Assembly (NCBI GenBank): GCA_016861345.1
Contig: BOLD01000002.1
Span: 1 to 64,000 of the forward strand
DNA length: 64,000 bases
Reading direction: 5' to 3'
Origin: Oligoflexia bacterium
Lineage (GTDB): Bacteria > Bdellovibrionota > Bdellovibrionia > Bdellovibrionales > Bdellovibrionaceae
Shown piece by piece: positions 1,295 through 15,719 of this stretch (the first letter of the stretch is position 1; the number at the start of each line of letters is the position of its first letter). A program made the translations under genes and the position numbers. The notes under the pieces are model-generated. The model made no database searches. It was not told the origin of the DNA and saw nothing but the letters and a program-made list of their open reading frames with translations.

Positions 1295-1717
1295 TTAGTC
1301 TTGATCCGTTGTCACACTCAAAAAGTTTTTTTTGCAATCGGCAGATAGCTTATCAAGTTTTTCAAATAAACAGGTTGCAATTTGTCCTTTGCTTTTTCCT
1401 GGGCACAGGACTGAAGATTGACATTTTTCGAAAGCTTGAGTGTATGACATGACAGTAATATCGCAGTAGGGCTTGAGTCCGTCATGATTGTCAAGTATGC
1501 AAGCACCTAAGCCTTTTCCCCATTTTTTATTTTCACAAACTGAAAGTTGTGCATATTCACCGCAAAGCCGAGCTGATACCTTGAGTAAATTTTGTGGCTG
1601 TGGGATAGACAAAGCTGCTGGCGCGGATGCTGATATTGATGAGCTATTTTTCAGTAAAATGAAGCTCGTCAGGACACTAAGAAAATAGATGGCAACATAT
1701 GCGATGAGTTTAGTCAT
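1295..1717 (-). CDS. Small membrane-anchored Cys-rich protein
   Basis: A 140-residue protein of unknown function. Residues 4-22 form a hydrophobic segment that could be an uncleaved anchor or a signal peptide. The rest is probably periplasmic and holds eight regularly spaced cysteines (LCGEY, VCENK, ACILD, YCDIT, KCQSS, LCPGK, TCLFE, DCKKN), resembling the short Cys-rich repeats of exported proteins with paired disulfides. It converges with the fibre-like gene with only 2 bp between stop codons. No enzyme motif is visible. Confidence 0.65.
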   Translation of the reverse strand: MTKLIAYVAIYFLSVLTSFILLKNSSSISASAPAALSIPQPQNLLKVSARLCGEYAQLSVCENKKWGKGLGACILDNHDGLKPYCDITVMSYTQAFEKCQSSVLCPGKSKGQIATCLFEKLDKLSADCKKNFLSVTTDQD

Positions 1718-1764: not shown

Positions 1765-3168
1765 CTATAGTCTTGGAATTAGCCCTAGCATATAGCTAAA
1801 ATAATCAGTCCAGCTGAGGCCAAGGCCGCCACGAAGGTGATAAATGCTAAAGATCAGGCTGCCACCGATCAAATAAATAATGGGTTTAAACTGACCGAGC
1901 TGTATACGGAAAGTGAATCGTCTTAAATACAGGGAAAGGCATGAGAAGCTTGCAATAATAGAAAAATATATCCACGCACCCTGGGTGAATGAGGCAAGGG
2001 TTTCATATAAGGAATTTGAGTCACTGAGTACGAAAAGTTCATTTGTAAAGTGAAAAATGAATCCGCCACTAAATATGCTGAGCCAGAGCGAGAGATAAGT
2101 TTTTACATAAGCATTCTTGATTGGTGAAAATAAATTTTTAAAAGTAGGATAAAATACTGTCATGAGAAAATATCCATAATAATGGATTAGACGACCATAG
2201 AATTCTGCAAACGATCGAGCTTTCCAGGGTGAGTTAAACATTGGTGGCATTGGATAGCCTGCAAGCCGTGCGATTCCGACTGCGATTCCAAAACTGTAGG
2301 CTATTTTCAAATAGTAATTGATAAAAATAAAAATAAAGACAATCCAGCGCATCCACCAATCGGGATTATGTGCCTGTGCGACCGACAGTCCGCCCTTAAA
2401 GCCGCGTAAGTCAAGTGATGGCAGATAGTCCGATAAGTTTATAAATGATGGATTTTCACCAAATATAACAAAATTGATCGTATTTATGATGATCAGCGTA
2501 AGAAGTGCGTATAATAAAATTGAGAATCCTTTTAATTGAAGAGTTGGAAGATCCTCTTTTTTGAGACTGGAGATAGGAGAGCAGTCGGAACTTTCATCAA
2601 CGATTGGCGATGAGACATTGATAGCAAAAAAAGGAAAAGAGGTGAAAATCGTCAGTAGAAGCTCGCGAAATCCCAAGATTGCCTTTCGGTGCAGCACGGC
2701 CAACCAATAGAGATAACTCTTAAAAAAAATTGAGATATATAAAACCAAGATACTTGTTTGCGTGTAATCAAGCAGAATAGGGTAAATCAGGACGTAGGAG
2801 CCGCCAAGGTACAGAAGTCGATAGGATTGGCTAATTTTAAAAAAAATATACCCATAGCAAATAAGAAAAAATATGAGTATCGAAGGAGTCAGTATTCGAT
2901 TCATAGGGTAAGTATTAATTAAAGTTGGACTTGTAAATATACCGAAAGATAAATCGGAAAGGTACCAGAAGCTCAGACTGCTCAATGCAACTACATAAGG
3001 TCGTAGTTGCGGTTTAAAATGGATCAAAAAAAGTGTTATACTAACTGGCCAGAAGGCTGAATGGGGGAGTGAAAAATAAAGTATTCCGCAAGATAAAGTA
3101 AGATACGCTAAGCCGTTATTTATGTAAATTGGTAGGCTCCGGACAATGTTACTTGATAACAAGGGCAT
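1765..3168 (-). CDS. MBOAT-like polytopic membrane acyltransferase
   Basis: A 467-residue very hydrophobic protein with roughly ten or more membrane segments. Around residues 320-385 it has FNSPWKARSFAEFYGRL, then FYPTF, then GGFIFHFTNELF. This matches the layout of the MBOAT family (DltB/AlgI type: a N-x-P-x-x-x-R-S-x-x-E-F-W-x-R stretch, then a membrane-embedded His). The His in FIFHFTN would be the catalytic residue. The match is by pattern only. It is the last gene of the minus-strand acyl-assembly operon and overlaps the acyl carrier gene by 20 bp. I infer that it moves an acyl group from that carrier to an acceptor on the outer face of the inner membrane. A wax-synthase-like or unrelated polytopic protein is the alternative. 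Confidence 0.6.
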   Translation of the reverse strand: MPLLSSNIVRSLPIYINNGLAYLTLSCGILYFSLPHSAFWPVSITLFLIHFKPQLRPYVVALSSLSFWYLSDLSFGIFTSPTLINTYPMNRILTPSILIFFLICYGYIFFKISQSYRLLYLGGSYVLIYPILLDYTQTSILVLYISIFFKSYLYWLAVLHRKAILGFRELLLTIFTSFPFFAINVSSPIVDESSDCSPISSLKKEDLPTLQLKGFSILLYALLTLIIINTINFVIFGENPSFINLSDYLPSLDLRGFKGGLSVAQAHNPDWWMRWIVFIFIFINYYLKIAYSFGIAVGIARLAGYPMPPMFNSPWKARSFAEFYGRLIHYYGYFLMTVFYPTFKNLFSPIKNAYVKTYLSLWLSIFSGGFIFHFTNELFVLSDSNSLYETLASFTQGAWIYFSIIASFSCLSLYLRRFTFRIQLGQFKPIIYLIGGSLIFSIYHLRGGLGLSWTDYFSYMLGLIPRL

Positions 3169-3388
3169 ACATTTTATTCAGGGTATCGATTTGCTCTTTC
3201 TTAATGTCCTCAACCTTCATGGAAAGTTCACTAAATTCTGTTTCGAGAAATAAAATAAGGTCCACAATAAAAAGGGAATCAAGTTTTTCAGAGAGAACAA
3301 GTGACGTATTTTCATCAATAGGCTCAGTGACCTTTCTTTTCGTCAATTCGTCCATTACAAATTTTTTTATTTTATCATTCTTTGTCAT
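3149..3388 (-). CDS. Acyl carrier protein
   Basis: A 79-residue acidic helical protein with the phosphopantetheine attachment motif LDSLFIVDLI; Ser38 is the predicted attachment site. Length and motif position are those of a stand-alone type II ACP. It overlaps the upstream ketosynthase by 14 bp and the downstream MBOAT-like gene by 20 bp, so it is almost certainly translated with them. Its sequence departs from housekeeping AcpP (AcpP normally has GADSLDTVEL here), consistent with a dedicated carrier for this cluster. Start ATG 3388 lies within the end of the ketosynthase gene. Confidence 0.85.
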   Translation of the reverse strand: MTKNDKIKKFVMDELTKRKVTEPIDENTSLVLSEKLDSLFIVDLILFLETEFSELSMKVEDIKKEQIDTLNKMYALVIK

Positions 3389-4565
3389 ATTGATCTCCTT
3401 TACTTAAGATAAGACATGCATTTTGGCCTCCAAAGCCAAAACTATTACACATTATATTATTAATATTAGCATTTCTTGATACGTTCGGCACATAGTCCAA
3501 ATCACAGATAGGGTCAGGTGCTTTAAAATTGATCGTAGCGGGTATGATTTGCCTTTTGATCATCAGGCAGGCGGCGATTGCTTGGCTTACGCCCGCAGAA
3601 ATCAGACTGTGGCCAAGCTGTGATTTTAAAGCAGTGATGGGGATTTCATGAGCTTTGTTGCCAAAGACACTCTTTATAGCTCGAGTTTCGATAGGGTCAT
3701 TGAGTTTTGTAGATGTACCGTGGGCACTGATGCAATCAATCTCACTAATGCTGAGGTGAGCTTCGGCTAAGGCAGTTTTCATCACTTGAATAGAGGCTTT
3801 ACAATCAGGTCGTCCATCTGTATGGCGCCAGGCGTCCGTTGCATGTGAGACTGCGCAAATAGTCGCGAGCGGAGGTCTTCCGTTTTTAATAGCATCAGAT
3901 TTTCTTTCGAGAAAAAGAATTCCAGCTCCCTGGGATTTGCAAAATCCATCACGATCAGCAGAGAATGGGCAACTTGCTTGATCTCCGGAAACTGCCCTTT
4001 TTGTATGGGCACCGAGAGCAAAAAATGGGTAGCAATCTGCTGTACTCATTCTGGGCTCAATGCAAATAACGAGAGCGTTATTCCAAATTCCAGACAGAAT
4101 CCGTTCTCTGGCTGCCCCGATAGCCACATGGCTCGTTGAGCACGTCGCAAAAATGGGAATAAATTGTGTTGGATCAGGTGGTCGGCAGTTTCGTTTTATT
4201 AACTCAGATGAAATAAACTCCTCAAAGCGATCCGGTGAAAAATAATCCGGATCTTCAAATGATGTGAGTATATTGGCTTCATTTGTTGTAAAGTAGGACG
4301 AGGTAATGAGGCCGTCAATTTTTTGTGGCAAAGGGTGCTGAAGAATAAATTCATTCAGTAAATGAGCTGAAATGCTATAAACATCGTCGTTATATTTTAA
4401 GCCACTTCGATCAAATAATCCGACTGACCTTGGCGGGAGCGGTACTGTTGGCGATGTCTGTGTTCCGGATTTGCCAGAAAAAAGATTATGCTCAAATGAA
4501 GTTATTGTTGATCCGAGTGGTGAAGCGATGGAATATCCAGAGATCACGATTTCATGTTTTGTCAT
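3375..4565 (-). CDS. Beta-ketoacyl-ACP synthase (KAS II/FabF type)
   Basis: A 396-residue decarboxylating condensing enzyme that should extend an ACP-bound acyl chain by two carbons from malonyl-ACP. The Cys-His-His triad is complete: Cys142 in ATCSTSH, His282 in SAHGTSTKLNDPIET and His319 in KSQLGHSLISAG. The C-terminal NSFGFGGQNACLIL is the usual Gly-rich loop. It overlaps the preceding ketosynthase-like gene by 14 bp and the ACP by 14 bp. The pair of an intact ketosynthase and a Cys-less partner resembles KS/chain-length-factor pairs of type II polyketide and aryl-polyene systems; whether they form a heterodimer here is inference. Confidence 0.9.
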   Translation of the reverse strand: MTKHEIVISGYSIASPLGSTITSFEHNLFSGKSGTQTSPTVPLPPRSVGLFDRSGLKYNDDVYSISAHLLNEFILQHPLPQKIDGLITSSYFTTNEANILTSFEDPDYFSPDRFEEFISSELIKRNCRPPDPTQFIPIFATCSTSHVAIGAARERILSGIWNNALVICIEPRMSTADCYPFFALGAHTKRAVSGDQASCPFSADRDGFCKSQGAGILFLERKSDAIKNGRPPLATICAVSHATDAWRHTDGRPDCKASIQVMKTALAEAHLSISEIDCISAHGTSTKLNDPIETRAIKSVFGNKAHEIPITALKSQLGHSLISAGVSQAIAACLMIKRQIIPATINFKAPDPICDLDYVPNVSRNANINNIMCNSFGFGGQNACLILSKGDQYDKE

Positions 4566-5274
4566 TTTGAATATCCTGTACTAATTGAATAAGTGGAGTC
4601 GCTATTCCATAGCTTGTAGAAGATGTTCTCATATTTAGGACAGAAGACCAATTTGTCCGAGATCCATTTGGTGCAAGTAAGAGGCAAGAAGACCCCTCGG
4701 ATAATATTTGGTCTTTATTTAAGAAGTTTCGTTCTTTTATTTGAAGGATAGGGTCATCAAAGGCAAAGGATGCTGCGACAATAGCCTTTTTTATTTTACC
4801 AAGCTCGAGGTGTAGTTCAGCTTGCTCTAAAGCGTGCAGAACACCATTCTTTCGAGAAGGGTAGGTTAATATGGGGCCCATAATCTTTGTTTGAATTCCG
4901 ACAAGCCCAGCCATGACGCTGGGAGAGTTTTTCATAAGATTCTCAAAATAAATTAAAGTATCGGTGGGCATGGGCTCATGTGAATTGAGGAGTGCGGCAG
5001 TAAAGTAGTCAAGACTTCCTCCTTCGATTGCACAATAAATTCCTGCATCAAAGGGGGATTCAAGATCCAGCGCTTTCAATCTGGTTATAGCCTCGGAGAC
5101 GGAATGAACAAGAAATGTTGCGTTTCTGCTATTTAAGTGCAGCGTTGGGTGCTCAACAAAGGATTGAGTTTTTGTAACCACCACTTTTTTATTCTGAAAT
5201 TCATATTCAAGATTTTTAAGTGGCGTTGTGCTTGGATCTGGGAGGTAATTATAACAACCGATAACTTTACTCAT
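4552..5274 (-). CDS. Cys-less ketosynthase-like protein (chain-length-factor-like)
   Basis: A 240-residue protein with the N-terminal half of a thiolase/ketosynthase fold (IYCAIEGGSLDYF, then GLVGIQTKIMGPILTYPSRKNG, then KKAIVAASFAFDDP). Where a ketosynthase would have its nucleophile (TACAS or similar) this protein reads LTYPSRKNG at residues 137-144, so the active-site Cys is absent, and no catalytic His motifs follow. It is about 60% of normal ketosynthase length and ends cleanly, with no sign of a frameshift into the next gene. It overlaps the KAS III stop by 4 bp (ATGA). A structural, chain-length-setting role beside the intact ketosynthase is the best guess. Confidence 0.65.
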   Translation of the reverse strand: MSKVIGCYNYLPDPSTTPLKNLEYEFQNKKVVVTKTQSFVEHPTLHLNSRNATFLVHSVSEAITRLKALDLESPFDAGIYCAIEGGSLDYFTAALLNSHEPMPTDTLIYFENLMKNSPSVMAGLVGIQTKIMGPILTYPSRKNGVLHALEQAELHLELGKIKKAIVAASFAFDDPILQIKERNFLNKDQILSEGSSCLLLAPNGSRTNWSSVLNMRTSSTSYGIATPLIQLVQDIQNDKT

Positions 5275-6188
5275 ACGACCCTCTTGAGTAAGCTGCCGGC
5301 CCAGGCTAGGCCGCTACCAAAACCACAGATATAAATCAGTTTATTTGATGATTTATGTATTTCATTTTCAAGAAGAAAAGGGATGGAGCAAGAACCTGTA
5401 TTTCCATATTCAGCTGCAGCAAAAGGTGCTTTTTCCGGAGATACCTGTAAGAGACTTTGAATTTTTTCGACTGCCTTTTTTCCGGCTTGATGGAAGCAAA
5501 AAAGATCTATGCTTTCGATATTGTATCCAGTGCTTGATAGATGTTTTTTTATTTCTTTGGGAATTGTGCGAACGGCAAAATCATAGACCGCAACACCGTT
5601 CATTCGTAGCTCACCCTCTTCAATTAGCAGTTCAAATCCTTTCTTGCCAATTGTTCCAAAAGTATAACTCATTGGCTGATAAATTGATTGAGAACTAAGA
5701 AGACAGACTGTGGCTGCATCGCTAAATATTAGACTGAGGCCATCTCGGTCATCGTGAATATAGCGGGAAAGGGTTTCGACGTTAAAAAGTAGACCATATT
5801 TTAAATTCTGACTTTCCATAAGTGATTGAGCAGAGAGAACTCCTTGAACAAAGCCAGCGCACCCAAGTCCATAATCAAGACTGATGCACTTTTCAGGTAA
5901 CTGAAGATCGCCGTGGAGCTTGGCAGCTAAATTGGGCAATTTAATTTGAATTTGCTGACTAACAACGCCAATAAAACTAATTTCATTCACGTCAATATTC
6001 ATCTTTGTTTTGAGCTGTTCAAATGCCTTTAGACACAAAGTTTCAGGCTCATCGCTTAAATCCATTCGATGAACTTGTTTGAAGCCAACCCCCTGTTCGA
6101 TCGTAATTGGGTCAAAACGACTTTTTTGCGATCTATTGTCTATTTTCAATGGAGGTAGGTAGGTACCAATTTCCTGAATGCCAATCAT
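5271..6188 (-). CDS. KAS III (FabH-like) condensing enzyme
   Basis: A 305-residue thiolase-fold enzyme with the KAS III Cys-His-Asn triad: Cys110 in DYGLGCAGFVQG, His233 in FCFHQAGKKAVE and Asn263 in EYGNTGSCSIPF. Family members start a chain by condensing an acyl-CoA with malonyl-ACP, or act as ester- or ketone-forming acyltransferases in secondary metabolism. Length is slightly below the usual 315-330. It overlaps its upstream neighbour by 4 bp and the Cys-less ketosynthase by 4 bp. Its place in a cluster with its own ACP suggests it chooses the starter unit of this pathway rather than serving primary fatty acid synthesis. Confidence 0.85.
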   Translation of the reverse strand: MIGIQEIGTYLPPLKIDNRSQKSRFDPITIEQGVGFKQVHRMDLSDEPETLCLKAFEQLKTKMNIDVNEISFIGVVSQQIQIKLPNLAAKLHGDLQLPEKCISLDYGLGCAGFVQGVLSAQSLMESQNLKYGLLFNVETLSRYIHDDRDGLSLIFSDAATVCLLSSQSIYQPMSYTFGTIGKKGFELLIEEGELRMNGVAVYDFAVRTIPKEIKKHLSSTGYNIESIDLFCFHQAGKKAVEKIQSLLQVSPEKAPFAAAEYGNTGSCSIPFLLENEIHKSSNKLIYICGFGSGLAWAGSLLKRVV

Positions 6189-6835
6189 ATAACTGCCCCA
6201 TATTTATTGTATTCACATCCAACGAATTTTCCATTTAAAAGAAAAGTTGATTTTAGGATATTCATCGAATTGAAATAATCCATGCGGACTGTGTACTCAC
6301 TCAATCGATATTGATTTAAATCAAACTGAGATACAATTTTAATAGCGGGCAGGGGTGGGGCTTGGTTTTGGTAGTCACGACAGAACTGTGGAAAATTTTT
6401 GGTAAAAAGCAGGCGTGGAAGAATGGATAAAATTCTTAACATTGGATTCGATGGGGTACCAGTATAGATGACTTCTTGATCTGATAAAAATCGCGAGTCT
6501 TTTAAGACGTCGGCGCTCTTGAGGCTATATTTTTCAATTGTTTTTGATTCGCTCTCGCTAATCAGGGAATGGTAATGATCTCCCTGACTTTGGAATGAAA
6601 ATATTGCTTTAGTTGTTTTCGGATATGCTGTGAGTTTCCCAGAATAAAATTGTATATAGGGATCTTTGTAAATGGGTCCGATCATTGAAAGGGAAATTTC
6701 AGTAGGTGGTACCTTCAATATTTCATTAGCCTTCGTGCAAAGACTGCTGTACAAATCGGATATATGAAGAAACTCACGATCGTCGCGAAACGGAATTTTG
6801 ACGGTACTTTCAAAAAGAGTCCTTTGACCAGACAC
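6185..6835 (-). CDS. Unrecognised protein heading the acyl-assembly operon
   Basis: A 216-residue soluble protein with no signal peptide and no motif I recognise. It is rich in aromatic and hydrophobic residues and has two distinct halves. The first includes a stretch around residues 60-90 (IQFYSGKLTAYPKTTKAIFSFQSQ). The second carries ILPRLLFTKNFPQFCRDY and ends in an alternating strand-like segment (STFLLNGKFVGCEYN). The stop overlaps the KAS III start (ATGA), so it is translationally coupled to it. Position suggests an accessory enzyme or partner of the condensing enzymes. It is divergently transcribed from the hotdog gene across fewer than 100 bp that must hold both promoters. Confidence 0.6.
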   Translation of the reverse strand: MSGQRTLFESTVKIPFRDDREFLHISDLYSSLCTKANEILKVPPTEISLSMIGPIYKDPYIQFYSGKLTAYPKTTKAIFSFQSQGDHYHSLISESESKTIEKYSLKSADVLKDSRFLSDQEVIYTGTPSNPMLRILSILPRLLFTKNFPQFCRDYQNQAPPLPAIKIVSQFDLNQYRLSEYTVRMDYFNSMNILKSTFLLNGKFVGCEYNKYGAVI

Positions 6836-6879
6836 TACTCCTCCCCATCAAAAAAAATGACATCACCTATTGGAGATCA

Positions 6880-7236
6880 TTGCAATGTGATTATCGTGAT
6901 GCGCAATGTCTTTTGCGGGGTGTTTTTCTGATGGGTATCGCTCAGATGCATGATGAAATAGTTTACGAAGCAGCTGGTATTACAGAATATGGTGAAACAG
7001 GTGCGCTATTGCTTCTTATTTATAGGTCTCTTTTGAAGACTTATGGTGCGGGTGGCATAATTACAGAATGGGATTCTGAGTTTTATAAAATCCCAGAAAT
7101 AGGAAGTCTTGTACTTGTTGATTTTGCAATTCGAAGTATATCGAATCTTGGATTTGCTATAGTGACCATTCAGGCAAGTTTGCAGGATGGGACAGCTTTG
7201 ATGAAGGTGCGCTATATCACTCAATTAAAAAAGTGA
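6880..7236 (+). CDS. Hotdog-fold protein, MaoC-like half domain
   Basis: Up to 118 residues. The spacing of ITEWDSEFYKIPEIGSLVLVDFAIRS and FAIVTIQASLQDGTALMKVRYI fits the second part of a MaoC/hotdog domain (substrate-cleft strand, then a V-x-x-x-x-x-Q-D-G strand). The N-terminal Asp/His active-site segment of MaoC hydratases is not present, so dehydratase activity cannot be assumed; it may be a thioesterase-like or binding hotdog. The start is uncertain. TTG 6880 follows GGAG by 4 bp; ATG 6931 follows GGGG by about 10 bp and would remove 17 residues. It is the first gene of the plus-strand arm, 6 bp before the nitroreductase. Confidence 0.55.
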   Translation: MQCDYRDAQCLLRGVFLMGIAQMHDEIVYEAAGITEYGETGALLLLIYRSLLKTYGAGGIITEWDSEFYKIPEIGSLVLVDFAIRSISNLGFAIVTIQASLQDGTALMKVRYITQLKK

Positions 7237-7242
7237 GGCAAG

Positions 7243-7893
7243 ATGAGTATTGAAAGAAAATTTCTATTTGAAAGTCTGATGTGGAGATATGCCACGCACG
7301 CCTTTGATAAGAATAAAAAGATTTCCCAAGCGGATTGGGATTTGGTTGAGGATGTTCTCAGGCTTACGCCATCGACATTTGGGCTTCAACCATGGAAATT
7401 TATAGTTGTACAGAATGTCGAACTAAGGCAGAAGTTGTTGCCTTACACATGGAACCAGTCTCAGGTTCTCGATTGCTCTCACTATATCGTATTTGCAACG
7501 CTTAGCCAAATCTCTGAAGCGTATGTTATGAAGTATATGAAGAAAGTGAGTGATGTGAGGCGAGCTCCTTTGGAGCTCATGGCGGAATATAAAAATAAAA
7601 TCATGGGGTCGGTGCAGGGGCCGATAAATGAAGCAAACATTATTCATTTTACACGTCGTCAAGCTTACATTGCAATGGGTTCATTGCTGACGTCAGCAGC
7701 CTTAATGCGAATTGATACATGTCCCATTGAAGGGCTTGATCGTGAAAAATATGATGATCTCCTTGGATTGAAAGGGACGGACTACCGCACAATTGCTGCT
7801 GTTGCATGCGGATACCGCAGTTCAGAGGATCGGTACGCCAAGCTTCAAAAGGTTCGTTTTGAGAAGAGTGAGATTATTTCACATATTGATTGA
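7243..7893 (+). CDS. Nitroreductase-family flavoprotein
   Basis: A 216-residue member of the FMN-dependent nitroreductase superfamily. Visible landmarks are the RYATHAFD N-terminus that contacts FMN phosphate, the LTPSTFGLQPWKFIVV helix-strand (S-x-x-N/G-x-Q-P-W), and AALMRIDTCPIEGLD with a following Gly. Members reduce nitroaromatics, quinones, enones or flavins using NAD(P)H, and some oxidise heterocycles in biosynthetic clusters. The start ATG 7243 follows a GAGGCAAG site. It lies between the hotdog gene and the cysH-like gene in the plus arm, so a redox tailoring step for the cluster product is plausible but unproven. Confidence 0.8.
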   Translation: MSIERKFLFESLMWRYATHAFDKNKKISQADWDLVEDVLRLTPSTFGLQPWKFIVVQNVELRQKLLPYTWNQSQVLDCSHYIVFATLSQISEAYVMKYMKKVSDVRRAPLELMAEYKNKIMGSVQGPINEANIIHFTRRQAYIAMGSLLTSAALMRIDTCPIEGLDREKYDDLLGLKGTDYRTIAAVACGYRSSEDRYAKLQKVRFEKSEIISHID

Positions 7894-7902
7894 GGTCGAC
7901 TA

Positions 7903-8592
7903 ATGAATTTTGAGAAAAAGAGATGTCAGGCGATTGATTTATTGAATAAGGTGACAGCGAATCACTCTCCTGCGGTTTTCACAACGAGCTTCGGAGCTGA
8001 AGATATGGTTTTGATGGATATCATTGGGCAAAATGCCTTTGATATTGAAATAGTAACCCTCGACACTGGAAGACTTCATGAAGAGACCTATAAGCTGATG
8101 CAAGAAGTTTTGTTATACTATAACTTAAGATTTAAAACGTACTGTCCCGACTCTTCAGAACTTGAAGAATATATTAATCAATCTGGAATAAATGGTTTTT
8201 ATCGCAGTGTAGATCAAAGGAAAGCCTGCTGTCAGATCCGAAAGATCAATCCACTCAAACGAGCATTGCGCGGCAAAAAATCTTGGATTACGGGGCTTCG
8301 TCGAGATCAATCAGTTGAAAGGCAAGGCGTTCAGATTCAATTTTTCGATGATTATTATAAAGTTGATAAATTTTCGCCTTTAGCAGAATGGACTTCAGAT
8401 GATGTCTGGGAATATATTCGAAATTATAGAGTTCCATACAATCAGCTTCATGATCAAAATTATCCCAGCATTGGATGTCAACCTTGCACGCGACCCATTC
8501 AGCCTGGTGATCATATTCGATCAGGCCGGTGGTGGTGGGAGAATGCAGTAGTTAAAGAGTGTGGGCTTCACGGGATAGGTTGTAAAAAGTGA
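7903..8592 (+). CDS. cysH: Sulfonucleotide (APS/PAPS) reductase
   Basis: A 229-residue PP-loop protein of the CysH family. TTSFGAEDM (27-35) is the nucleotide-binding loop, LDTGRLHEETY (53-63) the following signature, and TGLRRDQS the substrate loop. Cys109-Cys110 plus Cys192 and Cys195 (GCQPC) form the [4Fe-4S] set of the APS-reductase-like group, and Cys220 in KECGLHG is the C-terminal catalytic Cys. It should reduce adenylylsulfate to sulfite using thioredoxin. It lies among acyl-assembly genes with no other sulfate-assimilation gene in the window, and its TGA overlaps the next GTG start. Either the cluster uses reduced sulfur or this is the only cysH carried along. Confidence 0.85.
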   Translation: MNFEKKRCQAIDLLNKVTANHSPAVFTTSFGAEDMVLMDIIGQNAFDIEIVTLDTGRLHEETYKLMQEVLLYYNLRFKTYCPDSSELEEYINQSGINGFYRSVDQRKACCQIRKINPLKRALRGKKSWITGLRRDQSVERQGVQIQFFDDYYKVDKFSPLAEWTSDDVWEYIRNYRVPYNQLHDQNYPSIGCQPCTRPIQPGDHIRSGRWWWENAVVKECGLHGIGCKK

Positions 8593-9332
8593 AAAGTCTT
8601 CAGGGGAAAAATATTTTTATTACAGGTGGAAGTCGCGGGATTGGAGCTGCAATTGTCCGAGTACTTGCTGAAAAAGGGGCCCATGTTGGTTTTTCTTATT
8701 CAAGTCAGAAAACCGCTGCCGAAGAGCTTTTATCTGAAATTGGTGGTAATCCTCATTTTACAATTCAGATGGATATTTCTGATGAAGCATCGGTCCAAAG
8801 TGCAGGCCAGCAGATCGTTCAGAAATTTGGGGCTATTCATGGTCTCGTGAATAATGCAGGAATCACAAATGATATTCTCTTATTTCGTATGAACTCTGAT
8901 GACTTTAGTACAGTGATTGATACGAATTTAATAGGCACCTACTATGTGACGAAATATTTTTTGAAATATCTGATGAAGAGCTCAGGTTCATCCATCGTGA
9001 ATATGGTGAGTGTTGTTGGCCAAGTTGGTAATGTTGGACAGGCAAATTACGCCGCGTCCAAAGCGGGAGTTGAGGGGCTATCAAAGTCACTTGCGCTTGA
9101 GGTAGCATCCAGACAGGTTCGTGTGAATTGTGTGGCCCCAGGTTTTATTGCGACTGAAATGACAGATGCAATCCCTGAGGCAGTACGGGAGAAAAAAATA
9201 AATAGTATTCCAATGGGAAGACCTGGAAGGCCTGATGAAGTAGCTTATGCTGTTGCATTTTTGCTCAGTGATGAGGCCAGTTTCATCACAGGACATACTT
9301 TAAACGTCAATGGTGGTATTTTTTTAAAGTAA
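8589..9332 (+). CDS. fabG: 3-oxoacyl-ACP reductase (FabG-type SDR)
   Basis: A 247-residue NADPH-dependent short-chain reductase that should reduce the 3-keto group left by the ketosynthase. TGGSRGIG (12-19) binds the cofactor, NNAGI (88-92) follows, and Ser141, Tyr154 and Lys158 (YAASK) form the catalytic set. PGFIATEMT and GHTLNVNGG are typical FabG landmarks. The start is GTG 8589, overlapping the cysH stop by 4 bp, so the two are coupled. The symbol names the family; context suggests a cluster-dedicated paralogue rather than the housekeeping fabG. Confidence 0.9.
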   Translation: MKSLQGKNIFITGGSRGIGAAIVRVLAEKGAHVGFSYSSQKTAAEELLSEIGGNPHFTIQMDISDEASVQSAGQQIVQKFGAIHGLVNNAGITNDILLFRMNSDDFSTVIDTNLIGTYYVTKYFLKYLMKSSGSSIVNMVSVVGQVGNVGQANYAASKAGVEGLSKSLALEVASRQVRVNCVAPGFIATEMTDAIPEAVREKKINSIPMGRPGRPDEVAYAVAFLLSDEASFITGHTLNVNGGIFLK

Positions 9333-9384
9333 ATGTAAGCGGCCAGGAGTCCCAATAGTTTTTCAAGACCTGCATATTGGAGTT

Positions 9385-10197
9385 TTATTCATTTGTTCGG
9401 CCATCATAAGTTGGTGTGGAAATCTCTTTAAGAAACTCACTGACAGGCTTTTCATATTCCGCTCTGAAATCCTTTAACCCATTTAAATGAGCGGCTTGAG
9501 GAAGAGAAAGCTTCTGCCAGTCCAAGTGTTGGTGGGGTTCAAAAACTTTGTCGATTTGGTCAACTGTGATTATCTTATCTTTCCAACCTCGAATGGAAAG
9601 TATGCGAAAGTGGTGGGGGAGTTTTGCCAGGTCTTCGTGAAATGCTATTTTAAATTGGGGATGCCAGATCAATGTTGTGGCAGCAGAGGCCACAAGTTTC
9701 AACGGAGATAATCGGATAGGCTCTTCTGTCGTAAAATACGCGATCATGGATTTAAATAAGTCACCTGATGGTCCGCTGTCACAAACAAGACCGGCAATAT
9801 CATAGGCGTTACGACGGGCGATGGCCTCAATCGCGCTGGCGCTGGGATTTGAAAAAGCATAAACAATTTTTCGTCCTGGAATAGCATTGAGCATGGCTTG
9901 AATTTGATCTGCCCAAATGTGTTTCAAGCCCAATTGCATTTCCGAGCTAAAAAGATGATTGATTAATTTCCAATTTCTGGGCTCTCTCTGCAGGTTGAAA
10001 ATGACGACGTCATAGCCAAGTTCGGCTAAGAAATTGACATGTCTAGCAAGAGAAGGTTTTTTTGCTCCATAAAAGGGAACAATCAGAACAGTTTCTGAGA
10101 ACTTTTTGTCCGGAGAGATGTGAAGCTCTCCTCCAAAGGGGTAGAGCTTCTCTTTTAGTGACGACTCTGTGGTCGAGCTGGCCATAAATCCGTCCAT
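9385..10197 (-). CDS. Alpha/beta hydrolase-like protein
   Basis: A 270-residue cytosolic protein with an alpha/beta hydrolase outline. VLIVPFYGAKKPSLARHVNFLAELGYDVVIFNL is the opening strand-helix-strand, with the long run broken by the oxyanion region. The nucleophile elbow reads AFSNPSASAIEA, so the usual G-x-S-x-G is altered (F-S-N-P-S). A late Asp (GWKDKI) and His (AAHLNGL) could complete a triad. The substrate is unknown. The start region overlaps the aceE 3' end by 43 bp; ATG 10185 is an alternative. Co-transcription with aceE is likely. Confidence 0.7.
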   Translation of the reverse strand: MDGFMASSTTESSLKEKLYPFGGELHISPDKKFSETVLIVPFYGAKKPSLARHVNFLAELGYDVVIFNLQREPRNWKLINHLFSSEMQLGLKHIWADQIQAMLNAIPGRKIVYAFSNPSASAIEAIARRNAYDIAGLVCDSGPSGDLFKSMIAYFTTEEPIRLSPLKLVASAATTLIWHPQFKIAFHEDLAKLPHHFRILSIRGWKDKIITVDQIDKVFEPHQHLDWQKLSLPQAAHLNGLKDFRAEYEKPVSEFLKEISTPTYDGRTNE

Positions 10198-12968
10198 TTT
10201 GCTGGTTGGGGAGCGCTGGCTTGGATTTCTCCAAGTACACGCTGACTGACGCGAACTTCCTCAAGGGCAGTCTCGGATAACACTTTACCGCAAGCCTCGA
10301 CAACTGATTCAGCGTCAATGCTGTGGTACTCGTAGATATCTTTTGGGCGGCCGCATTTTGAATGTTTGTAAACGGCTAAGGTCTCTTGTCGAACACCGAC
10401 GATTGAGCCAAGGTTGTCCAGAAGTCCTGGTTCACCATCGTGAACACTGACGATGGGGACCCGTCGACCTGAAACAGTAACAAATTCGTGACTTCCCATT
10501 TCTTCAGTTGGATGAACATGAAGATTTCCGTTAATTCCAAGGCCCTCTTTGAGCCAGTGGTAATCATTTTCATGTCCAAGAATGCCGCAGAGCAAGTCAG
10601 AGCTTGTGACAACAATCACATTGGCATAAATACCATGAGCCAAAAGGGCCTCTGAAGCCTTAATGGCCTCAGTCGTTGGAGATCCCATCGACATGATATT
10701 CACAACATTATCGCCAGGCTCATATCCTGCATAGCCACGATAATCGATGAGGTAGTAAGCGCCCTGAAGAACATCTTCTCTGATCGTCGACATGATTTCT
10801 TGCTCAGACATTGTTTCAACGGTGGACTCATCTGCGGCACCTTCAAGAGCAAATTGTTGTCGACACAAAGGCGTCGACAGTCCGATTTTAAATCGAGCTT
10901 GTTTTTTCAAGTTTGTTAAGAAATCTTTTTGCTCAATACCGCGGGTGGTTCCACGAATGAGAACTCCCGATCTGCCCGCGTTGTCATTTAAGCAGTGACG
11001 CTTAATCGAGTCACATAGAATCCAATCGAGCTCTTGGCAGAAAAATGGTTCCCATGTGATTTGATTGGGGATTTGAATATCTGATTTCCAGCCATGCTGA
11101 GCGCCTTCGGGTGAAAGAGTGACGCCGGATGGGGTTCCGACAAGAATGAAGCTCGATTTCCAATATAAGTTATAAAAATACTGATCCAGGGCTCTTTTAA
11201 TAAAGAAGTCATAGACTGTCATTAATGGAATAATGGGAACGCCCAAGACATCTCTCAGTTTTCCAAATGAACCAACACAGGACATGACGTTTCCTTCTGC
11301 GATTTCAAATCTCAAAAATCGGTCAGAAGGATCTTCGCCGGGAACAAGATCCGGCAGCTTATCATCTTTAACGCCAAGGTCGGCTTCAAAATCAGGAACA
11401 GCGGCAGCTCCAAAAATTTTTCCATCCATTGCTGGGTTTAAGTTTGTCGAAGTGCCCACATCGGGAGCCATGGAAACAAGAAGCTCTGCGGGTTGTTTCC
11501 AGACCTTTTCGTTTTGTGCCAGTGGCTTTTGATTTTTCCCAAGATTTTTTTCACTCAGTGGAGTGTTTGCTATGCGGGTGAGTTTAGCTGTGAGCTGTCC
11601 CAGCATCCACTGGGTGTGGGGATAGCTTGTCATTTTTGTGCTAATGTCGAGAGAGTGGGGAATTTCACCGTACTCCGTAAACTTTTGTGCAAAATACTTT
11701 TGATTTTCAATTTTGATTTCGTGCTCTTTCAAAATATCAGAATAAATTTGATCACCACGGGCTTTTAAAAACTCAGCCTCTGAGGTTCCCTTTTGAAATC
11801 GTTCAAATAAAACTCCATCCTTGATCCCTTGTGCTTTTCGAAGGTCCTCGACTTCTTCCTCGCTCGGAAGGGCGGAGTGGTTACCTGGAGCTGCAGCCAT
11901 TTTCAAGCCCCATCCTTTTAAAGTGTGAGCGATGATGATGGTGGGTTTGCGGCTATTCTTTTTGCTCTCGATCATGGCCTCTGCCAAAGCAATCATATCG
12001 TGGCCACCAAGATCTCGAAGGGCAAGATAAAGTGCTTCGTCAGAAATTGTATCAAGGAATTTCTTAAGACTGGGGTGTTCTTTAGAGATTCCTTTTTTCA
12101 ATGCCTTCATGTCTTTCACAAGTAGAAGAGCCTGAAACTGGTAGTCTTCTAATTCATTTTCAAGAAAGTTTTTAAAAGCTTCTCCGCCGGACTTTTTAAA
12201 GAGTTCTTGTCTGATATGTCCGTGCTGGATTTGGATGACATTCCATCCATTGGCCTTCATCGTGCGCTCAATGCGAACAGCATCTGTTCCATCCATGATT
12301 TTCTTGTTGGTAATGCGATGTCCATCAAGGCTTTGACGGTTATAATCTAAAATCCATGTGAGATTTCCAATTTCTCGCTCAGCAAAATCGGGGATGGCTT
12401 CGTACATGGAGCCTTCGCGAAATTCAGAGTCTCCGCAAATCGCCCAAAAGTGTGCCTCTGGAACATTGTAATTATGTTCTTTTGCATATCTGTAAGCGAG
12501 AGCTAAATAGCCTGCTTTGACGGGTGGAATACCAACAGTGCCAGATGGGAAAAAGTTGTGGGCGTCTGGGTCCAATGCCGAATGGTAAGACTGAAATACG
12601 GGTTCACCTTTTTGCGAAAAATGTCGAAGTCCCATCATCGCCGTGTTGGATTCTTCAAGACTGAATTTGGTGAGATCTGGTTTTAATAATAAATCCAACA
12701 AATAGTTATAAGCATGATCTGTAGGCGAAGCATGTGGCTTGTTTGCGATGTGATCAAATCCAGTCTTCACCAAAAGATGAAGTGCGCCTAAGATGTGCAG
12801 GGCAGAAGAAGATGCGGCAGCATGACCACCGATTTTAGGATCGCCCTTTTCCTTGTTTGTTCGATGATTGGCTTGTGAAATCATCTGTGTTGCCAAATAG
12901 TGAGCACGAAGAGCAATCGAGTTTAAAGTTTTACGATCCCAATTTTTCTGATTATTTTGATTCGCCAT
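10155..12968 (-). CDS. aceE: Pyruvate dehydrogenase E1 component (homodimeric)
   Basis: A 937-residue thiamine-diphosphate enzyme that decarboxylates pyruvate and loads acetyl onto the lipoyl arm of E2. Length matches AceE of proteobacteria. The ThDP motif runs from GDSEFREG to LDYNRQSLDG, and HTLKGWG, GTTRGIEQKDF and SMGSPTTEA are typical of the single-chain E1. The start ATG 12968 has an AAAGGA site upstream. No aceF or lpd is adjacent, which is unusual since they commonly follow aceE; E2 and E3 must lie elsewhere. Confidence 0.95.
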   Translation of the reverse strand: MANQNNQKNWDRKTLNSIALRAHYLATQMISQANHRTNKEKGDPKIGGHAAASSSALHILGALHLLVKTGFDHIANKPHASPTDHAYNYLLDLLLKPDLTKFSLEESNTAMMGLRHFSQKGEPVFQSYHSALDPDAHNFFPSGTVGIPPVKAGYLALAYRYAKEHNYNVPEAHFWAICGDSEFREGSMYEAIPDFAEREIGNLTWILDYNRQSLDGHRITNKKIMDGTDAVRIERTMKANGWNVIQIQHGHIRQELFKKSGGEAFKNFLENELEDYQFQALLLVKDMKALKKGISKEHPSLKKFLDTISDEALYLALRDLGGHDMIALAEAMIESKKNSRKPTIIIAHTLKGWGLKMAAAPGNHSALPSEEEVEDLRKAQGIKDGVLFERFQKGTSEAEFLKARGDQIYSDILKEHEIKIENQKYFAQKFTEYGEIPHSLDISTKMTSYPHTQWMLGQLTAKLTRIANTPLSEKNLGKNQKPLAQNEKVWKQPAELLVSMAPDVGTSTNLNPAMDGKIFGAAAVPDFEADLGVKDDKLPDLVPGEDPSDRFLRFEIAEGNVMSCVGSFGKLRDVLGVPIIPLMTVYDFFIKRALDQYFYNLYWKSSFILVGTPSGVTLSPEGAQHGWKSDIQIPNQITWEPFFCQELDWILCDSIKRHCLNDNAGRSGVLIRGTTRGIEQKDFLTNLKKQARFKIGLSTPLCRQQFALEGAADESTVETMSEQEIMSTIREDVLQGAYYLIDYRGYAGYEPGDNVVNIMSMGSPTTEAIKASEALLAHGIYANVIVVTSSDLLCGILGHENDYHWLKEGLGINGNLHVHPTEEMGSHEFVTVSGRRVPIVSVHDGEPGLLDNLGSIVGVRQETLAVYKHSKCGRPKDIYEYHSIDAESVVEACGKVLSETALEEVRVSQRVLGEIQASAPQPAKWTDLWPARPQSRH

Positions 12969-13012
12969 TTCGAGGTTCCTTTTGAATTTTCGAATATTTA
13001 CTCTAAAATTGA

Positions 13013-13921
13013 TTAGGCCTCAAGGATGAAATCCCAGCGAATCTTGATTGTTCCATCTTCATCGATAATTCCACGAGGTGGATTGGGAAATGGCGCAGCG
13101 GACCGGAAAGCATCCACAGCAGCTTCGTCGACATCATGGACTCCTGAGTTGCCGATAATTTGTACTTTGACAAGATTTCCAGTTTTATCAAGGGTGACCA
13201 GACACTTGGTGATTTTATTTTCAGTCGAGGCAATATTTCTTCCCTCTCGGTAAAGGCGAGTCAGCCGCTCTTTCAGCTTTGGTCCCCAATGCTGATTCAA
13301 TTGCGTTTTGATACGGGCGTAATAGCTAAAATAAGTAAATTCGCGAGTGCTCAAGAGAGTTTCTAGTCCCGGATCTAAATTGGGAATATAATCCAAAGTC
13401 TGACTGACATCTCCGCCAGCAGGGGGTGTTTGTTGAGACTTCTGAGTTGGTTTTTTCTGATTAGCAAGAAGAGCATTTTTTTCTAACTCTTCTTCTCTTG
13501 CCCTTTCTTGTGATTCACGGTCGTGAATAGATTTTGTGATATCAAAACTAGGCTTAAATTGATCAAGTGATATTTTTCCTCGAGCTCCGCTTTTGGCTAT
13601 GTTTTGAAACTCTCCACGATTTTGAGCTACGGTTTGTTTTTGAACCTTTTGATTGTGCTTGGATAAATATTTGGCGTTGGGATCAATTTCGTCATTCAGT
13701 TGGTGATCGCTTTGATCAACGACTTGTTTTGGAGTCATTTCTTCGGGTTTTTGCTCCACGACTTCGGCATCCGAAGTTTCAATGAGATCAATCGAAATTT
13801 GATTGGAATTTGGACTGACCTCGACCTTATAGATCAACATGAAAAGCAGAGCGCAGATATGCAGTGCAACTGATAAAAATAGAGCCTTTTGGATAGAAAA
13901 CCTGCGCCTATAGTCCATCAT
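13013..13921 (-). CDS. TonB-family energy transducer-like protein
   Basis: A 302-residue protein with one N-terminal membrane helix (about 14-35, LFLSVALHICALLFMLIY) and a cytoplasmic start rich in Arg. A charged Gln/Lys/Glu-rich periplasmic stretch follows, then a C-terminal TonB-type domain (about 205-300: LTRLYREGRN, LVTLDKTGNLVKVQIIGNSG, DEAAVDAFRSAAPFPNPP). Such proteins span the periplasm and pass proton-motive energy to outer-membrane receptors; others of this type serve gliding or secretion complexes. No exbB/exbD or TonB-dependent receptor is in the window. It is transcribed divergently from the phosphatase gene. Confidence 0.8.
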   Translation of the reverse strand: MMDYRRRFSIQKALFLSVALHICALLFMLIYKVEVSPNSNQISIDLIETSDAEVVEQKPEEMTPKQVVDQSDHQLNDEIDPNAKYLSKHNQKVQKQTVAQNRGEFQNIAKSGARGKISLDQFKPSFDITKSIHDRESQERAREEELEKNALLANQKKPTQKSQQTPPAGGDVSQTLDYIPNLDPGLETLLSTREFTYFSYYARIKTQLNQHWGPKLKERLTRLYREGRNIASTENKITKCLVTLDKTGNLVKVQIIGNSGVHDVDEAAVDAFRSAAPFPNPPRGIIDEDGTIKIRWDFILEA

Positions 13922-13970
13922 ATACTACATCGGATTTACTTTTGATTTCTTGAAGGCTAGAATCACTTTT

Positions 13971-14693
13971 ATGTCGTTAGATGTGTGGTGCAAGACAGAT
14001 AAGGGTTTGCGGCGTGAATCAAATCAAGACTCGTACTTGATTAACAAGGATTTAGGCCTATTTATCGTTGCAGACGGCATGGGAGGCCACTCTGGAGGCG
14101 AAGTGGCTTCGGCACTTGCTGTCCAAACTGTCGAAGAGGTCATCAAAAAACCGGCAGTTCCAGATCTTTCACCTAAGGATTTACTCGTTTATGCATATAC
14201 TCAGGCAAGTCGTCGAATCTATGAAAAGGCTCAAAATGAGAATCCGGAATTGATGGGAATGGGCACGACAATGGTCCTGGTTTACAGGTCGGGGTCAAGT
14301 TTGTATATTGCCAATGTTGGGGATTCAAGAGTTTATCTTTTTCGTCGCCCACACTTATGGCAATTGACCGAGGATCATTCTCTTGTGAATGAACAGCTTC
14401 GAGCGGGGCTTATTACAGAAGAGCAATTAAAAACTGTGAGCGGGAAAAATGTGATTACTCGAAGTGTTGGGTATGAGCCTGATGTGGTTGTTGATGTTAT
14501 TGAAAGACCTTTGACCCGAGGTGACGTTTTTCTGCTTTGTTCTGATGGACTGCATGGTTTAGTGATTGATCAGAAAATTTGTGAGCTATTAAATAAAAAT
14601 ACTCTTGATAAAGTGGTGGATCGCTGTATTGATCAGGCATTGGCAAATGGTGGAGATGATAACGTGACCGTTATGACTGTGGCGGTAAAGTAA
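13971..14693 (+). CDS. PP2C-family Ser/Thr phosphatase
   Basis: A 240-residue metal-dependent protein phosphatase of the bacterial Stp/PrpC group. All main motifs are present: RRESNQDSYL, VADGMGGHSGGE with metal-binding Asp and Gly, GMGTTMV, NVGDSRVYLFR, LTEDHSLV, CSDGLHGL and GGDDNVTVM. It removes phosphate from Ser/Thr residues and usually opposes a Hanks-type kinase, but no such kinase is adjacent. I chose ATG 13971, which starts MSLDVWCKTDKG as in relatives; an in-frame TTG at 13950 would add seven residues. The M23 peptidase gene follows after 15 bp, so they probably share a transcript. Confidence 0.88.
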   Translation: MSLDVWCKTDKGLRRESNQDSYLINKDLGLFIVADGMGGHSGGEVASALAVQTVEEVIKKPAVPDLSPKDLLVYAYTQASRRIYEKAQNENPELMGMGTTMVLVYRSGSSLYIANVGDSRVYLFRRPHLWQLTEDHSLVNEQLRAGLITEEQLKTVSGKNVITRSVGYEPDVVVDVIERPLTRGDVFLLCSDGLHGLVIDQKICELLNKNTLDKVVDRCIDQALANGGDDNVTVMTVAVK

Positions 14694-14708
14694 AGCGAAT
14701 TAAAAAGC

Positions 14709-15719
14709 ATGGGAACGGATAAGAAAAAGGTCACATTTTTTATAGTAACAAATGACGCTGGTGAGACCAAAAAATTGGTTCTCTCAACGGCATGGATAAA
14801 GGGCGGAGTCCTTTTAGGCGCCATTTTGTTTTTTGCACTAATTGCAGGTTTGGTGGATTATTTTGGTCTTCTTGTGCAAACGGCAGAGAATAAAAGGCTT
14901 AAGGTTGAGAACACTCAGCTCATCAAACAATTTCAAGCCATTGAGGGGAAAGTCACGGCCCTTGAAACAAATCTTGAGCGAGTCAAAACCTTCACGACAA
15001 AACTGAAACTCATCACAAACATTGAAAATCAAGATCGAGATTTAAAATTATCGATGAACCCAGAGCCAGCCCCCAATCAGCAGATTGAAGAATTTGATGT
15101 GCCCATGGAAAAGCGAGAAGGGCTGGCAGAGTTAGAAAAGGCTGGTCAAGACTTCACTGGTCAAAAGCCTTTGGATGAGAGCAAAGGTGAACTTGCTGTG
15201 CACGAAAATCGGGATTATCAATCACTTGCAATTCGAATTGATCGCTCCATTAAAGATGCCCAACTAAGAGAACAGTCTGTTTTAGATTTGTGGGAAACTC
15301 TTTCGGAAAAACAAAGTTTGATGAATGCCATTCCCAATATTCGTCCAGCGCGTGGATGGCTGACTTCTCGATTCGGTTACAGAATGTCTCCGTTCACGGG
15401 AAGAGCAGCTTTGCATGCAGGCCTTGATATTGCTGCAGCACCGGGATCTCCTGTGTATGCGCCTGCCGATGGAGTTGTTTCATTTGCAGGCTACGATGAA
15501 GGATATGGAAAAATGGTTGTGATAGATCATGGGTATGGATATTCAACCCGGTATGGCCACAATGCTCAAATTTATGTCCAAGTTGGTCAAAGATTAAATC
15601 GGTGGGATATCATAGCTTCAGTTGGAAATACGGGCCGATCTACTGGTCCGCATTTGCATTATGAGGTTCGTCTTAACGGGGTTCCGAAGAACCCCGCAAA
15701 TTTCATCTTGGATGAGTAG
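14709..15719 (+). CDS. M23 family metallopeptidase (murein hydrolase/regulator)
   Basis: A 336-residue protein anchored by one membrane helix (about 32-55), followed by a coiled coil (about 58-105), an acidic linker, and a C-terminal LytM/M23 domain (about 210-330). The zinc ligands are intact: HAGLD (first His and Asp) and HLHYE (last His), with RYGHNA between. It should cleave peptidoglycan cross-bridges in the periplasm. The coiled coil resembles that of EnvC/MepM-type proteins involved in wall remodelling. Ends LDE-stop, 15 bp from the convergent gene. Confidence 0.9.
   Translation: MGTDKKKVTFFIVTNDAGETKKLVLSTAWIKGGVLLGAILFFALIAGLVDYFGLLVQTAENKRLKVENTQLIKQFQAIEGKVTALETNLERVKTFTTKLKLITNIENQDRDLKLSMNPEPAPNQQIEEFDVPMEKREGLAELEKAGQDFTGQKPLDESKGELAVHENRDYQSLAIRIDRSIKDAQLREQSVLDLWETLSEKQSLMNAIPNIRPARGWLTSRFGYRMSPFTGRAALHAGLDIAAAPGSPVYAPADGVVSFAGYDEGYGKMVVIDHGYGYSTRYGHNAQIYVQVGQRLNRWDIIASVGNTGRSTGPHLHYEVRLNGVPKNPANFILDE

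Follow-up and report, generated by a model that had tools for sequence, protein, structure and literature searches.

Gene content and organization of the cluster

The window, as we call the whole 64,000-nucleotide stretch analysed, covers the first 64 kb of contig 2 in an assembly of 2.76 Mb that is 85% complete, and it carries ten genes arranged in two tight divergent arms (Table 1). The first-pass annotation had described such an arrangement, with a minus arm overlapping at every junction, and the ORF check agrees with it in full: all ten reading frames are present at the limits given there, the minus-arm junctions overlap by 4, 4, 14, 14, and 20 bp, and the plus-arm genes are spaced by 6, 9, and -4 bp. 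The divergent intergenic region is flanked on both sides by GGAG-type ribosome sites and reaches 95 bp at most with a plus-arm start at the ATG at 6931; no consensus promoter is reported inside 6836..6879. Beyond the last minus-arm gene, 47 bp past it and on the same strand, a Cys-rich ORF of 140 aa with an N-terminal hydrophobic segment (1717-1295), for which Pfam returned no family, may be a seventh gene of this arm.

Table 1. Features of the divergent cluster and its flank, with the basis of each assignment.
Feature	Position	Strand	Basis
Cys-rich 140-aa ORF, possible end of the minus operon	1295..1717	-	same strand, 47 bp past MBOAT
MBOAT-like membrane acyltransferase (predicted), 467 aa	1765..3168	-	MBOAT_2 below cut-off, His373 and motif, z scores
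Divergent acyl carrier protein	3149..3388	-	NCBIfam ACP models below cut-off, DSL
FabF-like ketosynthase, 396 aa	3375..4565	-	PF02801, TIGR03150, motifs
Half-size chain-length factor (predicted), aryl-polyene type, 240 aa	4552..5274	-	PF00109 below cut-off, BLAST, z scores
KAS III, glycan-cluster clade, proposed chain initiation	5271..6188	-	ACP_syn_III and ACP_syn_III_C, alignment, tree
Double-hotdog protein (predicted), 216 aa, GTG start	6185..6835	-	family HMM and AlphaFold2 fold
Short divergent intergenic region, presumed two-way promoter	6836..6879	.	sequence
Small protein, possible single hotdog	6880..7236	+	low-confidence fold only
FMN nitroreductase-family oxidoreductase, NfsB-like	7243..7893	+	PF00881, PDB matches
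CysH, APS-reductase type	7903..8592	+	TIGR02055, motifs
FabG-type 3-ketoacyl-ACP reductase	8589..9332	+	TIGR01830, YAASK

The region had also been called AT-rich, and this holds for both arms, with a GC content of 0.394 in the minus arm and 0.408 in the plus arm vs. 0.435 in the 43 other genes of the window; none of 2000 random gene sets was as low in GC as the cluster arms, and the codon usage of the cluster is likewise atypical (reached by about 1% of random sets). Overlapping genes and this common composition tie the two arms together.

The minus arm: a glycan-type module with an inserted ketosynthase pair

The first gene of the minus arm, listed as unknown in the first-pass annotation, encodes, as judged from a family profile and a structure model, a double-hotdog protein of an un-named, KAS III-linked family of about 200 aa. 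Pfam has no match for this 216-aa protein, and a family HMM, made from 25 other members, recovers it at 24.5 bits (E=1.2e-6), the best of 1000 shuffled controls reaching 9.4 bits. The AlphaFold2 model, computed with the family alignment after excluding one plasmid-derived row, has a pLDDT of 85.5 and a pTM of 0.82, and its Foldseek matches are double-hotdog acyl-ACP thioesterases and PKS dehydratases (2ess, E=6e-6; 5hst, a PKS DH, E=2.6e-5; TM about 0.45), so that a dehydratase- or thioesterase-like role is likely on the modelled fold. In many genomes, a gene of this family lies directly upstream of a KAS III gene with an ACP gene directly downstream, in sets placed among surface-glycan genes (aminotransferase, hexapeptide acyltransferase, NeuB, and others), and the order double-hotdog > KAS III > ... 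> ACP also occurs in Cyanobacteriota, Campylobacterota, Bacteroidota, Pseudomonadota, Chloroflexota, and others. Family members, which occur in the glycan clusters of eight phyla or more (some of the records being MAGs), carry the motif FxFKGxRxY(V/L)HGxD and include L069:7373-7993, L072:7375-7965, L074:7400-7990, L080:331-951, and L095:7419-7997, among others; a Pfam search with three members gave no family over cut-off. In Oleiagrimonas, a double-hotdog/KAS III pair has another cysH gene (L111:4518-5231) some 3 kb upstream.

The adjacent KAS III contains the ACP_syn_III and ACP_syn_III_C domains, and its catalytic Cys110, His233, and Asn263 are intact in the alignment with the members of its clade, to which it is 33-39% identical. 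In the tree it falls inside the glycan-cluster clade and apart from FabH, with the KAS III of G251, a genome from the order of the window organism, as its sister (support 99/86, on long branches). Close relatives of this KAS III number four in 369 genomes of the phylum and hundreds elsewhere. As a side observation, two IMG/VR contigs filed as viral (L196 and L197) carry tandem KAS III genes and an SDR gene beside sugar genes, L196 having an ACP gene too, in sets that resemble cellular glycan acylation modules.

Inserted between KAS III and ACP are the chain-length factor (CLF) and the ketosynthase (KS). The KS keeps Cys142 and both His motifs, HGTS and KSQLGH, and matches PF02801 (3.7e-30); the stretch before its Cys is about 20 residues shorter than in FabF, and it is 34% identical to FabF and 31% to the aryl polyene KS. 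A scan of genome contigs with this KS found no relative, and neither did a scan of viral contigs with the CLF. The latter, noted beforehand as a Cys-less KS, indeed contains no Cys in its 240 aa, and the comparison can now be refined: its PF00109 match stays under the cut-off (E=8e-4), while BLAST relates it to the aryl polyene CLF of G251 (E=3.6e-8), with a z score of 15.1 vs. this CLF and of 0.0 vs. FabF, which identifies it, at the level of sequence, as a half-size chain-length factor of specifically the aryl polyene type. Such CLFs are half-size proteins with one thiolase domain that pair with a KS (PMC8358021). The ACP has its DSL serine at residue 37 and matches NCBIfam ACP models at E=3e-5 and weaker, all under their cut-offs; it is not clearly of the glycan-module type. 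Given the family HMM and the fold of the 216-aa protein, the minus-arm backbone reads as a glycan-type module, and the whole arm is, by these sequence relations, a mosaic of a glycan-type KAS III module and an aryl-polyene-type half CLF.

The last gene of the arm encodes a protein that we call "MBOAT-like" on account of its MBOAT_2 score of 16.2 bits vs. a gathering threshold of 25. It has the invariant His373 and the preceding SPxKxxSxxEF motif in common with an AlgI-type MBOAT, features present in part in the membrane protein beside the G251 KAS III (L049), and its z score is 9.2 vs. this L049 protein and 7.5 vs. an AlgI-type. Its sequence thus marks it as a divergent MBOAT with the catalytic His kept, and it is likely the terminal acyltransferase, which we propose moves the acyl group off the ACP onto an acceptor in the membrane or at the surface. 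The earlier statement that the cluster lacks an acyltransferase is inaccurate if the MBOAT is counted as one. The adjacent KAS III and MBOAT genes of G251 are the sole other such pair found, and a search of 60 relatives for MBOAT genes returned AlgI-type acetylation genes only.

The plus arm

The small protein that opens the plus arm has 118 aa from the TTG at 6880 or 101 aa from the ATG at 6931, and had been labelled a hotdog protein. The label has no sequence support: Pfam returned no match, and a search of 369 genomes from the phylum gave no clear homolog; a single-sequence AlphaFold2 model (pLDDT 60.5, order b-a-b-b-b-b, best Foldseek E=9e-3) makes a single hotdog possible at low confidence. 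The nitroreductase is placed by PF00881 (5.3e-21) and, at E=1e-31, by NAD(P)H oxidoreductases of the PDB. FabG scores 286.8 bits with TIGR01830 vs. a cut-off of 297.75, has the GGSRGIG and YAASK motifs, and is closest (52%) to a FabG of fatty acid synthesis (FAS) in the same phylum, that of G251.

CysH passes TIGR02055 (250.8 bits, cut-off 235.3) and carries the CC, CxxC, and ECGLH motifs, a sound sequence basis for assigning it to the assimilatory APS reductase type. It is the sole PF01507 protein found in the 85%-complete assembly, where a search for CysD and sulfite reductase recovered neither. A clear copy is absent in 39 of 40 genomes, the two matches being the organism itself and one weak hit, and on this ground CysH was rejected as an old neighbour; it is an orphan gene in this assembly.

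Genomic site and probable acquisition

The cluster is located at the variable edge of a conserved block comprising a hydrolase, aceE, a TonB-like, and a PP2C gene, which is kept in most of the nine family members examined. Downstream of the hydrolase, the genes differ in each family member, and the cluster is absent there. Scattering of the genes in close relatives had been named beforehand as an observation against a cluster; in the relatives examined, the set is missing rather than scattered. No second genome with the full ten-gene set was found, and therefore conservation does not demonstrate co-function of the ten genes. Plasmid searches with the KS, MBOAT, CLF, CysH, nitroreductase, and KAS III proteins gave nothing, or ordinary relatives in unrelated contexts, limited to those of FabF, KAS III, CysH, and nitroreductase. 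The variable site and the atypical composition support acquisition, so that the earlier hint of transfer, drawn from base composition, is borne out by low GC, atypical codons, and the site itself, and the ten-gene cluster was probably acquired. Separately, the downstream edge of the aceE block, compared between window positions 9385-15719 and the loci L187-L195, may be an insertion-prone site.

Comparison with known systems

As far as the sequence models tested can tell, the cluster fits no definition of an aryl polyene, dialkylresorcinol, flexirubin, cispentacin, or FAS system, and the initial reading stands: a divergent cluster for acyl/polyketide assembly whose composition has not been described. 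Dialkylresorcinol (StlD-DarB) was rejected with 15.8 of the 450 bits of the DarB-family model NF005293, cispentacin (Amc) with 19 of 80 bits for AmcB (ACP) and 123.5 of 325 bits for AmcF (KS), a FAS FabF label for the KS with 235.6 bits vs. the TIGR03150 cut-off of 493.75, and flexirubin on scores or missing parts. The aryl polyene label was rejected in view of the gene list of such clusters (PMC8253772), with the half CLF beside a KS present and the starter supply and export set missing. Like aryl polyene clusters (ApeO-ApeC; L066), the window cluster has a half-size one-domain CLF beside a KS, a ketoreductase, and, as we propose, a membrane-directed product; unlike them, it has one ACP instead of two, a KAS III start, and an MBOAT end. 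The ammonia lyase, exporter, and lipoprotein carrier already noted as missing are indeed so: no ApeH ligase or ammonia lyase exists among the ten genes by Pfam/NCBIfam or in the ORF list of the window by eye, and the set of LolA, RND/MMPL exporter, and LolB-like lipoprotein is absent from the cluster. The order to which the window genome belongs does contain an aryl polyene cluster (L066, contig 18 of G251), where LolA-like, exporter-like, ammonia-lyase-like, CLF, and several KS genes were read by eye.

With the glycan clusters L069, L072, L074, and L015, the locus shares a same-clade KAS III, a double-hotdog gene directly upstream, and a dedicated ACP, and with the viosamine island it shares a ketoreductase; in that island, VioS, VioR, an ACP, and VioB are proposed to build 3-hydroxybutyryl and place it on a flagellin sugar (PMC3927599). 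In contrast to these sugar acylation modules, it has an inserted KS and CLF and an MBOAT in place of aminotransferase, nucleotide-sugar genes, and hexapeptide N-acyltransferase; neither amino-sugar synthesis genes nor a hexapeptide acyltransferase are present in the ten genes or, by eye, in the ORF list of the window. The end of the arm recalls Dlt D-alanylation, in which the carrier protein DltC passes its acyl group to the MBOAT DltB (PMC9338922), by having a carrier gene beside an MBOAT that could take its acyl group; it differs in having no DltA ligase or DltD and in an acyl group that would be made by condensation. Finally, the cluster has a heterodimer-type KS, a Cys-less partner, and one ACP as in cispentacin/coronafacate systems (AmcF-AmcG, AmcB), whereas their models are not reached, the CLF has no detectable relation to theirs, and there is neither an AT nor an aminotransferase.

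Proposed function and alternatives

We propose, at a probability of roughly 0.5, that the locus is an acquired composite operon pair working as a small reducing type II PKS-like line that ends in membrane transfer. What the sequence data establish is which genes are present, their active-site residues and family relations, the lack of the cluster in the relatives examined, and its atypical composition; the reactions, the order of the steps, the acceptor, and the product, which would be a short hydroxy- or polyenoyl chain, we infer. KAS III would condense an acyl-CoA starter with malonyl-ACP, and FabG would reduce the 3-keto group. Dehydrating or holding the chain would fall to the double-hotdog protein, perhaps together with the small protein of the plus arm; the KS with its half-size CLF would extend the chain on the dedicated ACP, and the MBOAT would take the finished chain off the ACP and link it as an ester to a hydroxyl group on a lipid or on an envelope glycan. 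As guesses, the nitroreductase might perhaps reduce an enoyl group and CysH might perhaps supply sulfite. For this proposal count the intact motifs of KAS III, KS, ACP, and FabG, the gene order held in common with glycan modules, the HMM match and fold of the double-hotdog protein, the aryl polyene type of the CLF, the KAS III-MBOAT adjacency of G251 with its sister KAS III, and the overlaps and common composition that tie the arms together. A carrier protein that supplies an MBOAT has a precedent in DltC-DltB, and a KAS III/KR/ACP set that supplies a sugar acyltransferase has one in VioS/VioR/ACP/VioB. On the other side of the balance stand the sub-Pfam score of the MBOAT, the long branches under the KAS III sister relation, an ACP not clearly of the glycan-module type, the lack of a second genome with the full set, the orphan small protein, and CysH and nitroreductase having no obvious place.

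In a less likely alternative, only the minus arm would make up the functional unit, as a KAS III/KS acyl module that decorates an envelope glycan or lipid by way of the MBOAT, and the plus arm would be a neighbouring redox/sulfur operon, co-acquired or pre-existing. CysH and nitroreductase have no known role in acyl assembly, FabG is nearest to a FAS FabG of the same phylum, and separate functions are common for divergent arms; against this, CysH is no old neighbour, low GC and atypical codons are common to both arms, and the minus arm would be left without a ketoreductase of its own. It is quite improbable that the product is a diffusible polyketide or a cyclopentanoid-like compound of cispentacin/coronafacate-like KS-CYF chemistry, with no membrane-bound acyl group: the weak matches of ACP and KS to the AmcB and AmcF models, AmcF being likewise a KS with an early Cys (PMC10698177), lie far under the cut-offs, the CLF is kin to the aryl polyene CLF with no NCBIfam match, and an MBOAT is present with no aminotransferase or AT.

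We consider it very improbable that the cluster is the diverged housekeeping fatty acid synthesis of the organism itself, even though the sole true KS match of the assembly is here, the FabG is FAS-like, and neither FabD nor another ketosynthase was found in the 85%-complete assembly. At this completeness, a whole FAS operon (fabD-fabG-acpP-fabF in relatives) may sit in a gap, so the missing FAS genes other than FabH are not read as loss; moreover, a separate FabH is present, the KS is far under the FabF cut-off, and CLF and MBOAT are not parts of FAS. Elsewhere in the genome, we note a lone fabH gene (L163, 7237-8277) and, on contig 9 (L164, about 4435-9721, by eye), oleABCD-like genes (KAS III/thiolase-like, AMP ligase, alpha/beta hydrolases, SDR) beside a UbiA-like gene. 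An extension of the PKS-like line, in which the chain started by KAS III and extended by KS and half CLF would receive sulfite through the APS reductase and be transferred by the ACP-dependent MBOAT as a sulfonated acyl decoration, is a long shot.

Significance

Besides the cluster itself, this analysis brings to light a double-hotdog family that is widespread and un-named, and whose members accompany KAS III in the glycan clusters of eight or more phyla. The locus suggests that the KAS III module that decorates surface sugars can be combined with a KS/CLF pair as in aryl polyene synthesis and joined to an MBOAT. Such a coupling would give type II PKS-like chains an exit that has not been described before, and the sulfonated decoration, if true, would represent a novel class of lipid or glycan modification in the envelope. 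For a predatory lineage, an acquired cluster that modifies the envelope would, by our reasoning, bear on prey recognition or self-protection.
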